A model generated the notes under the pieces. The model was given only the letters and a program-made list of their open reading frames with translations, was not told where the DNA came from and did not search any database. The position numbers and the translations under genes were made by a program. Shown one piece after another: positions 610 through 27,787 of a stretch of DNA of 35,868 nucleotides. Source of the stretch: a candidate division WOR-3 bacterium (GTDB lineage: Bacteria; Hydrothermota; Tepidihabitantia; Tepidihabitantales; Tepidihabitantaceae); assembly GCA_016867815.1 (NCBI GenBank), contig VGIR01000026.1, positions 1 to 35,868 of the forward strand. The letters run 5' to 3'. The number at the start of each line of letters is the position of its first letter. Position 1 is the first letter of the stretch.

Positions 610-1148
610 CCGACCGCGCCTTGAGCGCGAAGTAGCAGTCAGGACTTCGTCACCAGGAGACAAAGGGACCAAGAGGACCTTTGGGTCCGAGGTATCGTCT
701 GCCCTGACATCGGTGTCTAGCTGTGGTTCATCAGCTTCCATCGTCGTCGCGCCGGTTGCGCCGTAGTTCGAGGGACGACCGCACTGTTTGACAGGGGCCG
801 TTGAAGCCAAGTCAGAAGTCAGAAGGCAGAGTGCAGAAGGCAGGAGTCTGGTCGAGGACTTACCGCACCACGAAGGCGCCGACTTCTGGACCCGATGGTC
901 TGGTCTGCGAGGCGGGCGGGGTCAGGCTGCCGGATCCCGCCCGCGCTCAGTTACCACGGGCCTACGGCCGCTACCGCCTGAACCGGTGGCGGATGGCGAG
1001 GAGGCGAGATGAGAAGAGGCGATAGAGCGCCCAGAGAGAGCAGCGAGAGCGGGGAACAGACTAGGAGCCTCCGAGCCGTACCCGACGCGTGGTCCTCTGC
1101 GGGCCCGGCGGTTGGAGCTCCTTTGCGTCCGGTGGGCCCCCATGTCCG
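610..1148. other. Intergenic stretch without a supported gene
   Basis: I see no convincing gene here. Open frames exist on both strands but show no recognisable family or good ribosome binding site. At 811-847 there is a low-complexity tract built on GTCAGAAG/GCAGAAGG units, resembling the degenerate repeats found at other gene junctions in this window (for example 13807-13850). The segment 1000-1060 is purine-rich (AGAGAGAGCAGCGAGAGCGG). The stretch ends at the promoter of the secreted repeat protein. Confidence 0.5.
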
Positions 1149-5623: not shown

Positions 5624-5631
5624 GGAAATGT

Positions 5632-5665
5632 CGAAGGTCGAATGACGAATGACGAATCCCGGAAG
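5632..5665. repeat. CGAATGA-type degenerate repeat at the mutase start
   Basis: The tract GTCGAATGACGAATGACG (5638-5655) followed by AATCCCGGAAGG is a short run of CGAATGA units. Related runs occur inside rlmN (17862-17905) and between rlmN and rodA (18431-18570). Here it includes the mutase start codon, so the first dozen residues of the mutase are repeat-encoded. Confidence 0.6.
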
Positions 5666-17291: not shown

Positions 17292-18446
17292 TTACCCGGC
17301 CAGGCCGGCGAGCTGGCCGCAGCCGGCGAGGATGCTCGCGCCTTTGGAGCGCCTAACTGTGACGGCAGGGACGTGCGGCCAGAGCTTGCGGGCAAAGGTC
17401 TCGACCGATTCAGGCGCGGGCGGCGTGAGTTCGCAGCCCGCGAACGGGTTGAGCGGAATCAGGTTCAGCTTGCAGGGAATGCCTTTGAGCAGGGCCGCGA
17501 GCTGCTTCACGTCTCTGTCGCGATTGTTGATACCATCCACAAGCACGTACTCGAATGTGACGCGCTTGCCCTTGGCGTCGGTGTAGTCGCGCATTGCCGC
17601 CATGACGTCTTTCAGCGGGTGTATCTTGTTGACCGGCATGAGCCGGGAGCGGGTCTCGTCGTCTGAGGCGTTGAGGGAGAGGGCGAGACGGAACTGCTCT
17701 TCGACTCTGGCGAAGGCGCGGATGCCGTCGGGGATGCCGGAGGTGGAGATGGTTATCCTGCGCGCGCCGATGCCCAGGCCGTTCTCGGCGTTTATGGTCT
17801 TCGCGGCCTCAATCGTCGCGTCGTAGTTGAGGAAGGGCTCGCCCATGCCCATGAAGACAACATTCGTAATGACGAAGTCCGAATGACGAATCACGAATGA
17901 GCGGACGGCCAGTACCTGGGCAGCGATTTCGTGCCAGGAGAGGTCGCGCCTGAACCCGTGCGTGCCGGTGAAGCAGAAAGTGCAGCCGAGCTTGCACCCG
18001 ACCTGGGTGGAGACGCAGACCGTCCGACGGGCAGGGGTTCCGGCGTCCGGGGGTTGGCCACGGAGGCCCCTGTCTGACAGTGCCGGGGTTCGGGTCATGG
18101 AGCCAGGACCCTCGAACCCGAGAACCCCTGAACCCTCTCCTATCAAGACGGATTCGATGATGTTGCCGTCAGCGAGTTTGAACGTGAACTTGGTGGTTCC
18201 GTCGTCGTCGCTCGCTGTAGAGAGGAGGGAGGAGAGAGGAGGGAGGAGAGAGAAGCGCTCACTGAGCAGGGCGCGACGCTCCTTGCTCAGGTTCGTCATC
18301 GCGGCGAGGTCATCAACGCCCTTCTGCCAGAGCCAGGTGAAGACCTGAGCCGCAGTGTAGCGGGGCCAGCCGAGTTCCGCGCACAACGCCTGGAGTTGAG
18401 CGAGCGTGAGGGAGCGAAGATCAGGCTTCACAATGACGAATGACAA
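17292..18446 (-). CDS. rlmN: 23S rRNA (adenine2503-C2)/tRNA methyltransferase RlmN
   Basis: This 384-residue radical SAM enzyme methylates C2 of A2503 in 23S rRNA and A37 in some tRNAs. The Cys-x3-Cys-x2-Cys cluster is in CKLGCTFCFTG. SAM-binding GMGEPFLNYD, the RRITISTSG strand, ALSLNASDDETRS and the C-terminal catalytic cysteine in SILAGCGQLAG are all present. Compared with the family it carries three unusual low-complexity segments: residues ~65-76 (SLLPPLSSLLS), ~103-139 (GFEGPGSMTRTPALSDRG and flanks) and ~181-195 (RSFVIRHSDFV). Each is encoded by a degenerate repeat also seen between genes. The frame is maintained throughout. The first codons (TTG 18446, MSFVIV) are repeat-derived as well; GTG at 18431 is an alternative start just before the family-like KPDLRSLTL. 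Activity is likely retained because all catalytic motifs are intact. Confidence 0.93.
   Translation of the reverse strand: MSFVIVKPDLRSLTLAQLQALCAELGWPRYTAAQVFTWLWQKGVDDLAAMTNLSKERRALLSERFSLLPPLSSLLSTASDDDGTTKFTFKLADGNIIESVLIGEGSGVLGFEGPGSMTRTPALSDRGLRGQPPDAGTPARRTVCVSTQVGCKLGCTFCFTGTHGFRRDLSWHEIAAQVLAVRSFVIRHSDFVITNVVFMGMGEPFLNYDATIEAAKTINAENGLGIGARRITISTSGIPDGIRAFARVEEQFRLALSLNASDDETRSRLMPVNKIHPLKDVMAAMRDYTDAKGKRVTFEYVLVDGINNRDRDVKQLAALLKGIPCKLNLIPLNPFAGCELTPPAPESVETFARKLWPHVPAVTVRRSKGASILAGCGQLAGLAG
17862..17905. repeat. CGAATGA-type repeat inside rlmN
   Basis: ACGAAGTCCGAATGACGAAT (17872-17891) and CACGAATGAGC continue a run of CGAATGA-like units within the rlmN frame. It encodes RSFVIRHSDFV just before the conserved ITNVVFMGMGEP strand, a position where family members differ in length. 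Confidence 0.6.
18031..18140. repeat. GGGGTTCCGG-type repeat inside rlmN
   Basis: The segment begins GCAGGGGTTCCGGCGTCCGG, contains CCGGGGTTCGGGTCATGG, and ends CTCGAACCCGAGAACCCCTG. It is an inverted arrangement of GGGTTC units, also found between rodA and mrdA and at the start of btuF. It encodes a ~36-residue insertion between the ESVLI strand and the TVCVSTQVGC motif of RlmN. Confidence 0.65.
18220..18254. repeat. GAGGAGGGA-type low-complexity tract inside rlmN
   Basis: A purine tract of GAGGAGGGAGGAGAGA units, read on the minus strand as pyrimidine, encodes SLLPPLSSLLS. It lies in the loop before the DDDGTTKFTFKLADG strand of RlmN. Confidence 0.5.
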
Positions 18447-18570
18447 AACCCGAATTCTGAATCAAGTCCGAATGAAGGAGAATACCGAACTGCATCTGGG
18501 ATTTGGTCATTCGAGCTTGAATCGTCATTCGGACTTCGGACTTCAAGTTTGTCCTCATTCGGGCCTCGAT
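18431..18570. repeat. CGAATGA-type repeat cluster between rodA and rlmN
   Basis: CACAATGACGAATGACAAAA (18430-18449) and AAGTCCGAATGAAGG occur on one side, and TTGGTCATTCGAGCTTGAAT, CGTCATTCGGACTTCGGACT and CCTCATTCGG on the other, giving an inverted arrangement. The cluster fills the whole 108-base gap. It extends into the last codons and stop of rodA and into the first codons of rlmN. Confidence 0.6.
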
Positions 18571-19730: not shown

Positions 19731-19828
19731 AGGAAGGGGTCCTGGGGTTCAGGGGTCCCCGGGTTCCGGCCGAAGCGGCTCGGGAACCCGAACCGCCGAA
19801 CCCTGGAGCCCTTGAACCCTGTTGTCAT
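19731..19828. repeat. GGGTTC repeat with hairpin between mrdA and rodA
   Basis: The whole intergenic gap is made of GGGTTC/GAACCC units. A central hairpin at 19761-19789 pairs GGGTTCC with GGAACCC around GCCG-AAG-CGGC. Outer copies (GGGGTTCAGGGGTCCCC and CCCTGGAGCCCTTGAACCC) are also inverted. It lies inside a shape operon, so it could affect message stability between mrdA and rodA, although it may only be a repeat insertion. Confidence 0.6.
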
Positions 19829-25027: not shown

Positions 25028-25898
25028 CCTGGGGTTCCTCGGTTCCGGGGTTCGGGGGTTCGGGTCGGCAAATGGCCTGCGGAGACTGGTGTCCATCTTC
25101 CTGATGGTCGCCGGGTGCGGGCAGAGGCAGGCATCCGAATCAGAGCTTCGGGTTGTGTCGCTTGTGCCGAGCGTGACCGAGATCGTATACGCGGTGGGCG
25201 CGGGAAAGGCACTCGTGGGCAACACGAATCAGTGCAGCTTCCCGGAGGCGGCCAGGAGCGCGTACAAGGTCGGGGATTTCATGAGCCCGGACCTGGAGCG
25301 GATCGTCGCGCTGCGGCCGAGCCTTGTCTTTCTTACTCTACCCATGCACCGGCAGTTGCTGGATAAGTTTGCCGAGCTTAAGATACCCACCTACGTCTCC
25401 CGGCCGGGTGACATCGAAGCCGCTCTTAGGGAGATAGATACCGTGGCGCAACTGCTGGGACACAGGACAGCGGGGGAGAGCCTTGTCGCCGGAATGCGAC
25501 GCCGACTGGACTCCATTGCGCCGTCTGCGGACACGCCGCGCGTCTACGCCGAGATCTCCGGGACGCCTCTGATGACTGCCGGCGGCGGCACGTTCATCAA
25601 CGAACTGCTGGTGCGGGCGGGCGGACGCAACGTCTTCGCATCGTCCGCGCAGGAATACCCGGTGGTCGACCCCGAGGCTGTGCTTGCGGCTGACCCTGAG
25701 GTCATCCTGCTGCTGCACCCGGACATGAGTGCGCGTGACGTTGCCGCCCGCGTCGGCTGGGGCGGTATCAGCGCGGTGAAGAAGGGCCGCATCTATGAGA
25801 AGCTCGACGAGGACCTGCTCTTCAGGCCGGGACCGCGGATCGTTGACGGCGTGGTCCTGCTCGCGAGGCTGCTGCATTCAGAAACCACGAGGAGCTAG
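25017..25898 (+). CDS. btuF: ABC importer substrate-binding lipoprotein (BtuF/FhuD type)
   Basis: This 293-residue periplasmic binding protein belongs to the BtuF/FhuD/FepB class III family. A lipoprotein signal (RRLVSIFLMVAGC, cysteine near residue 34) is followed by RVVSLVPSVTEIVYAVGAG, GDFMSPDLERIVALRPSLVF and a C-terminal lobe with DPEVILLLHPDM. The CSFPEAARSAYKVGDF loop resembles cobalamin-binding BtuF. Iron-siderophore binding cannot be excluded. Cobalamin would fit a cell needing B12 for its mutase. The long n-region (LGFLGSGVRGFGSANG) is encoded by a GGGGTTCCGG repeat (25030-25067) and is probably an accretion in front of the original signal peptide. ATG 25017 overlaps trmI. Confidence 0.88.
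   Translation: MKSSLGFLGSGVRGFGSANGLRRLVSIFLMVAGCGQRQASESELRVVSLVPSVTEIVYAVGAGKALVGNTNQCSFPEAARSAYKVGDFMSPDLERIVALRPSLVFLTLPMHRQLLDKFAELKIPTYVSRPGDIEAALREIDTVAQLLGHRTAGESLVAGMRRRLDSIAPSADTPRVYAEISGTPLMTAGGGTFINELLVRAGGRNVFASSAQEYPVVDPEAVLAADPEVILLLHPDMSARDVAARVGWGGISAVKKGRIYEKLDEDLLFRPGPRIVDGVVLLARLLHSETTRS
25030..25067. repeat. GGGGTTCCGG-type repeat within the btuF signal region
   Basis: TGGGGTTCCTCGGTTCCGGG (25030-25049) then GTTCGGGGGTTCGGGTC is a run of GGGGTTC units straddling the btuF 5' end, like those in rlmN and between mrdA and rodA. Because no stop arises, it is translated as Gly/Phe-rich residues ahead of the lipoprotein signal. Confidence 0.6.
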
Positions 25899-25964: not shown

Positions 25965-26909
25965 ATGCGGCGACCTTCGTTGGCTTGGGCCGGCCTCATC
26001 CTTCTGCTCGTGTCGGCCGCGGCGCTCTCGGTAGCCATCGGGCCCGGCGGATTCAGCGGGACCAACCTTGGCGCGGTGATGAACCTGCGCCTCTTGCGGC
26101 TGGTGCTGGGAGTCGTCGCCGGCGGGGTGCTCGCGGTCGTCGGCGCCTCACTGCAGGGCCTGCTTCAGAACCCGCTCGCGGACCCTTTCACCATGGGCGT
26201 GGCAAGCGGTGCGGCCCTGGGCACGAGCCTGACCCTGGTGCTGGGCAGGACGGCCGGAGCGTTCGCGCCGGTCGGCGGGTTCGCTGGAGCGCTGGCAACG
26301 ATGCTCCTCGTGTACGCGCTCGCGCGGGTGCGGGGCCGGGTCACGGTCACCGGCCTGGTGCTGGCCGGGGTCATCACGAGCTTTCTTTTTTCGAGCCTCG
26401 TGATGCTCGCGATGATACTAGGGCGGCGTACGCTGGGCGAGGCAGTCTACATGATGATGGGGCACCTGGGGCCGGTGTTCACCGGCACAACCGTGTGGAT
26501 CTTTGGAGCAGTCGCGGTCCTCTCCATTGCCGGCTGCGCCTGGCTCTTCTCGATGTCACGGTCGCTCGACATCATGTCGTCAGGCGAGGAGGCGGCGGAG
26601 ACGCTTGGGGTCGACACCCAACAGGTCACCAAGACTGTGTTCGTCATCTCCTCGGTGCTGGTCGGTATGGTGGTCTCTTTCACCGGGGCGATCAGCTTTG
26701 TGGGTCTGGTCGTGCCGCACCTGGTGAGGATGCTGTTCGGGCCTGAGCACCGGCGGGTCCTGCCCGGGTCGTTTGTCGCGGGCGCGGGAATCCTGCTGCT
26801 CTCGGACGTGCTGGCGCGGAACATAGTGCCCGGCGGCCTGCCGCTCTCGATTGTCACCGCGCTCGTCGGCGTGCCCTTCTTCATCTACCTGCTCAGGAGC
26901 CGGTTGTGA
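25965..26909 (+). CDS. btuC: ABC importer permease (BtuC/FecCD family)
   Basis: This ~314-residue membrane permease has about ten hydrophobic segments and forms the dimeric channel for a vitamin B12 or iron-chelate importer. Family motifs are GASLQGLLQNPLADPFTMGV, SGAALGTSLTLVLG, GEEAAETLGVD (the coupling helix that touches the ATPase), GAISFVGLVVPHLVRMLFG and a C-terminal GVPFFIYLLRSRL. ATG 25965 directly follows a GTG at 25962 and either could initiate; no good ribosome binding site is seen in the repeat DNA upstream. The N-terminus is somewhat shorter than BtuC. The stop overlaps the ATPase start (GTGA). Confidence 0.92.
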   Translation: MRRPSLAWAGLILLLVSAAALSVAIGPGGFSGTNLGAVMNLRLLRLVLGVVAGGVLAVVGASLQGLLQNPLADPFTMGVASGAALGTSLTLVLGRTAGAFAPVGGFAGALATMLLVYALARVRGRVTVTGLVLAGVITSFLFSSLVMLAMILGRRTLGEAVYMMMGHLGPVFTGTTVWIFGAVAVLSIAGCAWLFSMSRSLDIMSSGEEAAETLGVDTQQVTKTVFVISSVLVGMVVSFTGAISFVGLVVPHLVRMLFGPEHRRVLPGSFVAGAGILLLSDVLARNIVPGGLPLSIVTALVGVPFFIYLLRSRL

Positions 26910-27787
26910 AGGAGCGTAGGGGACTGTCACCGCTTTCGTCTGACGAAAACGGTGACTGTACCCAATCGCAGGACGGCGACTGTACCCAGTCCATCCACAA
27001 CGCCATCGAGCTCTCGGGCCTTTCCTTCGGCTACGGCGAGTCGCTGCTATTCGAGGACTTTGATCTCGATGTGGCCTCAGGCGAGTTCCTCGGCGTCATC
27101 GGGCCGAACGGTGCGGGCAAGTCGACGCTGTTGAGGCTCGTGTCCGGATTGCTCAGGCCGGCAAAGGGCTCGGTCCGGATTCTGGAGCGCGACCTCGGCG
27201 CGTTGGGCCGGCGAGAGGTCGCGCGGACCCTCGGTGTGGTGCTGCAGGAGAACCCGTTCGCCTTCGACTACTCAGTCTCAGACGTCGTGATGATGGGTCG
27301 GAATCCCTACCTCGGAAGGTTCCAGAGCCCGGGCAGGCACGACCGGGAGGCAGCGAAAGCGGCGCTCGAGTTCGTGGATGCCCTTTTCCTCAAGGAGAAG
27401 CGCATCAACTCGATATCAGCCGGTGAGCGACAGCGAGTGGTGCTGGCGCGCGCGCTGGCCCAGGAGCCCCGGGTTCTTATGCTCGACGAGGCGACATCTC
27501 ACCTGGACATCGCGCACCAGCAGCTCATCGCGCGCATCCTCTCGGAGATGAATCGGCAGGGCAAGACGGTTGTGTTACTGTCGCACGACCTGAACCTGGC
27601 CGCGCTCTACTGCTCGCGAATCCTGCTGCTCGACCGCGGCAAGACAGTGGCCTGCGACGTGCCAGAGCAGGTCATCTCAGCCGAACTGATTCGAGCTGTC
27701 TACGGGGTAGAGCCGATTGTCACCCGGCACCCGGAGAGCGGCCGGCCCCAGGTGCTGCTACCCGCGCCGGCGCTCAAGCAACAGTAG
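26906..27787 (+). CDS. btuD: ABC importer ATP-binding protein (BtuD/FecE type)
   Basis: This 293-residue ATPase powers the importer. Walker A is GPNGAGKST, the Q-loop VLQENPFAFDYSVSDVVMMG, the signature SAGERQR (a variant of LSGGQ), Walker B VLMLDEATSHLD and the H-loop LLSHDLNLAA. The family core begins at AIELSGLSFGYGES, about residue 33. The preceding residues (GDCTQSQDGDCTQS and neighbours) are encoded by a GGTGACTGTACCC repeat and hairpin at 26920-26991, and have no counterpart in the family. GTG 26906 overlaps the permease stop; no other start lies closer to the core. The long tail (HPESGRPQVLLPAPALKQQ) is unremarkable. Confidence 0.93.
   Translation: MKERRGLSPLSSDENGDCTQSQDGDCTQSIHNAIELSGLSFGYGESLLFEDFDLDVASGEFLGVIGPNGAGKSTLLRLVSGLLRPAKGSVRILERDLGALGRREVARTLGVVLQENPFAFDYSVSDVVMMGRNPYLGRFQSPGRHDREAAKAALEFVDALFLKEKRINSISAGERQRVVLARALAQEPRVLMLDEATSHLDIAHQQLIARILSEMNRQGKTVVLLSHDLNLAALYCSRILLLDRGKTVACDVPEQVISAELIRAVYGVEPIVTRHPESGRPQVLLPAPALKQQ
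26920..26991. repeat. GGGACTGTCACCG inverted and direct repeat inside btuD
   Basis: GGGACTGTCACCGCTTTCGT (26920-26939) is mirrored by ACGAAAACGGTGACTGTACC (26943-26962), allowing a long near-perfect hairpin. A second direct copy, GGCGACTGTACCCAGTC (26975-26991), follows the first (26951-26967) at a 24-bp period, which is eight codons. It is read in frame as GDCTQSQD then GDCTQS at the BtuD N-terminus. Confidence 0.7.

Follow-up and report, generated by a model that had tools for sequence, protein, structure and literature searches.

Very short dispersed repeats in rlmN and other conserved genes of a candidate division WOR-3 bacterium

Short repeats described in bacterial genes and gaps

STRR heptanucleotides are tandem repeats of cyanobacteria, and the SDR elements of Nostoc, 21–27 nt in length, reportedly lie embedded in heptamer tracts. 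The SDR study itself (Elhai et al. 2008) is cited in PMC3116915 and PMC4390886. In Xanthomonas and Nostoc, heptamers of the GGGAATC/GGGGATT type occur as sense copies after stop codons and as antisense copies before start codons (PMC4692102), and the TAACTGA heptamers of the Beggiatoaceae consist of a single fixed word that is mostly placed upstream of starts (PMC4679880). Insertion of repeats into bacterial protein genes has been documented for Rickettsia, Wolbachia and enterobacterial MITEs; the Rickettsia palindromic elements (RPE) are palindromes of 105–150 bp that encode a conserved peptide (PMC2229807, PMC10969869). An earlier note on the DNA considered here had called such protein-length variation rarely documented, a statement that has to be limited to the heptamer class because of these cases.

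The window, i.e. the whole stretch of 35,868 nt that was analysed, belongs to a WOR-3-like MAG of 3.37 Mb (G000), and all genomes compared with it are likewise MAGs with short contigs. The lineage is so called because, among named sequences, its RlmN is best matched by a MAG of candidate division WOR-3. We consider it likely that in the genus of this organism, a little-known one of uncultured bacteria, very short dispersed repeats of three classes are apparently still being turned over, and that this process reaches into conserved genes. The first class comprises degenerate tandem 7-mer/8-mer tracts that draw on a limited vocabulary of words and are often laid out as inverted arms across gaps, the second a 27-nt two-hairpin element inserting at G^AA, often within tracts of the first class, and the third a palindromic element, GGGGACTGT...GGGACTGTCCC. 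The closest precedents are the cyanobacterial STRR heptamers with their embedded SDRs, and the RPE. Neither this combination nor its reach into conserved genes nor its presence in this lineage was found in the literature searched, which took in few subscription journals, and none of the exact repeat words was found there either. If the reading is correct, repeats of 7 to 27 nt lengthen and overwrite conserved proteins of DNA repair, translation and RNA modification, so rapidly that every species is different. The genus would then offer a natural system for the origin of protein loops and linkers, and a second lineage besides the cyanobacteria in which to seek the mobiliser of elements shorter than 30 nt.

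The three loops of rlmN

In rlmN, repeats of the first class occupy the loops A, B and C, with an element of the second class inside loop B:

17292–18431, minus strand: rlmN, which encodes 379 aa when read from the conserved GTG (TIGR00048, alignment and model)
17868–17900, minus strand: loop C insert of CGAATGA/CGAATCA heptamers encoding SFVIRHSDFVI, aa 178–188 (TRF period 14, 2.4 copies)
18033–18137, minus strand: loop B insert, aa 99–133, made of a GGGGTTC octamer arm, a hairpin and an inverted GAACCCC arm, with the 27-nt element nested in it
18056–18082, minus strand: the 27-nt structured mobile element CACTGTCAGACAGGGGCCTCCGTGGCC, a G^AA insertion within the octamer arm of loop B
18212–18254, minus strand: loop A GAGGAGGGA tract, aa 60–74 (TRF period 14, 100% match; alignment)

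The open reading frame is a genuine RlmN. It scores 340.5 bits against the equivalog model TIGR00048 (cut-off 290), and its AlphaFold model (pLDDT 84, pTM 0.85) finds its best PDB match in 6fz6, with 3rf9 as a further match. In an alignment with three congeners (G001–G003, 77–78% identity) and eight remoter relatives, the frame is intact and the motifs CxxxCxFC, GMGEP and the C-terminal GCGQL are conserved. The earlier note had described motifs and frame in this way and had placed the three tracts where they are found; the start codon, which it had taken to be repeat-derived, fares differently. The TTG at 18446, with which the reading frame of that note begins, does lie inside a repeat arm, but three congeners conserve a GTG at the position of 18431, and translation most likely starts there. 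That the inserts are assembly artefacts or mark pseudogenes is hardly credible: the genomes are MAGs with short contigs, in which repeats are hard to assemble, yet separately assembled congeners behave alike, their frames are open and the catalytic motifs of RlmN are intact.

The extra residues, which had been put at 37, 15 and 12, are fewer in the alignment, with a net gain of about 33 aa in loop B, about 10 aa in loop C and only 2 aa in loop A. The last of these loops reads FSLLPPLSSLLSTAS where the congeners read YTIGRLELLRT; on this alignment, a segment of similar length is replaced and there is no insertion. Loops B and C carry different inserts in each of the three congeners. In G003, loop B contains a CTCCTCC tract, the type of word found at loop A in G000, and G001 and G002 have TTCGTCC and CATTCGC heptamers in loop C. 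Seven of the eight remoter relatives have neither insert B nor insert C, and the eighth (G008, which belongs to a different genus of this family) carries an insert in loop C only, unrelated to the others. Insert B is thus missing from all eight, and its peptide is absent from the congeners.

In the AlphaFold model the pLDDT of insert B stays below 50, so that this segment is predicted to be disordered; the model places loop A in a strand and loop C at a helix end and the loop next to it. The earlier suggestion that the repeats are accommodated in protein loops is accordingly borne out in part: insert B has its predicted disorder and most inserts fall in linkers or indel-tolerant loops, but at loop A a strand has been overwritten. 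The proteins would tolerate such inserts, and selection may retain only those variants that keep the frame, lack stops and fall where the protein can accommodate them; that the proteins gain by them is not claimed.

Insert B, with about 105 bp and inverted arms, recalls the RPE, and the resemblance extends to dispersed repeats that lie in frame in conserved protein genes and are tolerated there. However, it is a composite of octamer arms and a separate 27-nt mobile element (18056–18082), and the inserts of this genus, unlike those of Rickettsia, are 7/8-mer tracts or the 27-nt element and encode another peptide wherever they occur.

Heptamer tracts in gaps and genes

Outside rlmN, the window holds further tracts of the same kind:

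5630–5657, plus strand: AATGACG heptamer tract containing the ATG start of a methylmalonyl-CoA mutase-type gene
18432–18554, no strand assigned: rodA-rlmN spacer, in which CGAATGA/CGAAGTC heptamers form inverted arms (RNA fold −35.5 kcal/mol, z −2.0)
19731–19828, no strand assigned: mrdA-rodA spacer with inverted arms of GGGGTTC octamers (direct sequence reading)
25033–25064, plus strand: GGGGTTC octamer tract encoding the N-terminal end of a BtuF-like binding protein

The repeat types of rlmN had been said to fill the neighbouring gaps. This applies to CGAATGA in the rodA-rlmN spacer and to GGGGTTC in the mrdA-rodA spacer, but the gaps adjoining rlmN yielded no tract of the GAGGAGGGA type. 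The inverted-arm layout of the rodA-rlmN spacer is kept in four species, G000 and the three congeners, with altered words. It is plausible that the mutase gene, with its start at 5642, and radC both begin inside a repeat; for rlmN such a start is not plausible. In radC (L137:1282–1998), the N-terminus MTKDEVRMTND, ahead of the first domain, is encoded by AATGACG-type heptamers; repeats may therefore supply start codons. An ABC-transporter ATPase of the window has the N-terminus MKERRGLSPLSSDENGDCTQSQDGDCTQS (26906–26990), encoded by GGGGACTGTCACC/GGTGACTGTACCC-like words similar to the third repeat class.

Repeats were surveyed in about 836 kb of G000, roughly a quarter of the genome, and in 0.29–0.36 Mb each of G002 and G003, with genes called by a simple codon-usage script. 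At a fixed threshold, the G000 sample contains 96 period-7 tracts, whereas an order-3 Markov control yields 2. Forty-five of them are coding, 46 intergenic and 5 lie at an edge, and the samples of G002 and G003 are alike in this respect. Per 100 kb, period-7 density amounts to 40.9 in intergenic and 6.3 in coding DNA, with periods 5 and 13 near zero. In the autocorrelation, period 7 gives a peak and period 8 a smaller one, i.e. the repeats are degenerate tandem 7-mers and partly 8-mers; counts of 8–10-mers alone reveal little word enrichment, the signal being visible as periodicity. Near gene ends, purine-rich tracts predominate behind stop codons (59:17) and pyrimidine-rich ones ahead of start codons (32:16). 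Inverted 8-mers are common to the two halves of 83 intergenic regions, compared with 43.7 after shuffling (maximum 60 in 200 shuffles), and their arms point inwards. Of 98 coding tracts, 80 have no stop in any frame of the coding strand, compared with 59 on the opposite strand.

These tracts resemble the STRR and the Xanthomonas-Nostoc heptamers in being tandem 7-mers, mainly intergenic, with a matching strand geometry (PMC4692102). Intergenic tandem 7-mers are thus present as in the STRR, but the few fixed consensus heptamers are not: there are dozens of degenerate words, with 61 classes among the 96 tracts of G000, as well as 8-mers, and a sizeable share lies inside conserved genes. The TAACTGA repeats of the Beggiatoaceae are likewise short direct sets of heptamers, some of them in ORFs, with a sporadic occurrence in distant phyla; unlike this genus, however, the Beggiatoaceae have one fixed word, and related heptamers are rarely repeated there.

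Slippage alone could yield tandem heptamers without any dispersal. According to such an explanation, low-complexity loops would gain 7-mers de novo and nothing would arrive from elsewhere. Most tracts indeed lack shared flanks, their units are degenerate yet locally consistent, and a tandem array is the form that slippage produces. However, the vocabulary common to loci and congeners exceeds chance by far, with 19 classes shared between the 61 of G000 and the 51 of G002 where about 2.7 are expected at random. It is also restricted to cores such as CAGANNN and CAAGCNN, the former occurring 239 times at 7-nt spacing compared with 46 and 61 at two control spacings. In addition, neither the inverted-arm layout nor the nested 27-nt element is a slippage product, which makes purely local slippage the less likely account. 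In the preferred reading, i.e. a turnover of dispersed repeats, heptamer tracts would grow and turn over by strand slippage combined with recombination or conversion among dispersed tracts. The process that had been summarised as one that "inserts or expands" short repeats mixes at least two, the turnover of period-7/8 tracts and the insertion of discrete structured elements.

Period-7 tracts were found in genes for an AddA-like helicase-nuclease (four tracts), in mfd and metG (three each) and in prmC, lnt, ruvX and radC. Within genes they are mostly interdomain or terminal; metG and the AddA-like gene each have one tract that falls inside a domain match. No two of the congeners compared agree in the loops of mfd, where one loop varies by as much as about 100 residues, and an insert in metG of G000 is missing from G002, although the two proteins are 88% identical overall. 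Distinct inserts thus occupy the same loops of rlmN, mfd and metG in each congener, which argues for a recent process of dispersed repeats, as the earlier note had proposed, and indicates that proteins are being lengthened or rewritten by very small pieces of repeated DNA. Neither of the outcomes that the note had named as refuting it, identical residues in relatives encoded by unrelated DNA or a lack of enrichment in further genes and gaps, was observed. Among 52 ortholog insertions of at least 4 aa, which come from 26 pairs with some events counted twice, 10 score at least 10 for period 7, compared with 3% of control segments, and none reaches that score for periods 5, 10, 11 or 13. The mfd match of G004 (L274) has one in-frame TAG and very long repeat-rich inserts.

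The inserts might instead be functional, adaptively evolving loops of RlmN, Mfd and MetRS that are repetitive by coincidence. They do stay in frame in conserved genes of all congeners, but the same words occur throughout intergenic gaps and in unrelated genes, the words at a given loop vary by species, and insert B is predicted to be disordered, all of which makes this explanation very unlikely. Against the preferred reading, many of the coding tracts belong to proteins that are secreted and poorly conserved. In paralogs, C-terminal domains of the secretion type (VRGV-loop-LLDxxGRKV; L127, L130, L139, L152, L155, L165 and L180) carry different words or the GGGGACTGT element at the same loop.

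A search of distant genomes with TCGTCATTCGTCATTCG gave matches in two Chthoniobacterales MAGs and one Bacteroidales MAG; the CACCAAG octamer had no match in 40 distant genomes. CGAATGA heptamers also occur in unrelated phyla, namely in Chthoniobacterales (L194 and L196, where they form inverted intergenic arms), a Chthoniobacter MAG (L193) and Bacteroidales (L192). A much bolder proposal, and a rather unlikely one, would be a common and hitherto unrecognised mutational engine of 7-nt (8-nt) units. It would place the same words in distant phyla (as with the inverted CGAATGA arms of the Chthoniobacterales MAGs), create sites at which tiny elements carried by RNA or ssDNA can insert, and keep rewriting loops of essential proteins, with the heterocystous cyanobacteria and this genus as two outbreaks of a single system. 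One further candidate, GCTGTCCGGGCTGAA, was rejected as a dispersed word, every copy listed being located within one coding stretch of L121. There, a 15-bp coding word recurs every ~111–117 bp (L121:2900–5550), probably in an ordinary propeller-type repeat protein.

The 27-nt element, the palindromic class and the Y1 transposases

A second copy of the 27-nt element is present in the window:

782–808, plus strand: 27-nt element, with AAGTCAG heptamers adjoining at 809–837

With a pattern slightly looser than CACTGTCNGACAGGGGCCNNNGNGGCC, 117 copies were found in six congeners and one in G007, and none elsewhere among the 61 genomes searched. Allowing at most 3 mismatches, the six genomes contain 251 copies, against 1 for a reversed-pattern control. 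Compensatory changes affect 6 of the 8 pairs in the two hairpins, in a set of copies chosen by similarity, which limits the variation that can be seen; 21 double-compensated cells compare with 3.7 in shuffles, and none of 500 shuffles was as high. The target is G^AA at 28 of 33 sites. When the flanks are joined, they are repeat-like in 36% of cases, compared with 10% of random intergenic stretches. One clean empty site is provided by a gene of G002 with exactly 27 bp (nine codons) in frame that are absent from the G000 and G003 orthologs, with no evident target duplication.

By its size, its predicted hairpins with compensatory changes, its short precise target and its location in heptamer tracts, the element is similar to the Nostoc SDRs, and like them it has tens to hundreds of near-identical copies and a compensated hairpin; the two differ in phylum. 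It may be moved by an enzyme encoded elsewhere, perhaps via an RNA or single-stranded DNA intermediate. Of the third class, GGGGACTGTNCC...GGGACTGTCCC, the genus has 210 copies and G007 has 4; several copies lie within genes.

No transposase or polymerase could be tied to any of the three repeat classes. Systems of the REP/REPIN-RAYT type combine repeat doublets that bear a family tag (GTAG/CGTC) with a linked gene for a Y1 transposase. REP/MITE-type transposition of all the repeats by the Y1 (RAYT-like) transposases of the genus would fit the 4–7 Y1_Tnp (PF01797) genes in each of the six congeners and the palindromic, REP-like form of the GGGGACTGT...GGGACTGTCCC element. Yet when six Y1 loci were inspected, a GGGGACTGT copy lay within ~1 kb of only one and the 27-nt element was present at none, and the 7-mer tracts are devoid of fixed length, ends or a central palindrome. 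The link of the Y1 transposases to the repeats is weak, and this explanation is unlikely. Several of the RAYT-like Y1 genes (L259–L264) are flanked by GGGGACA-type words.
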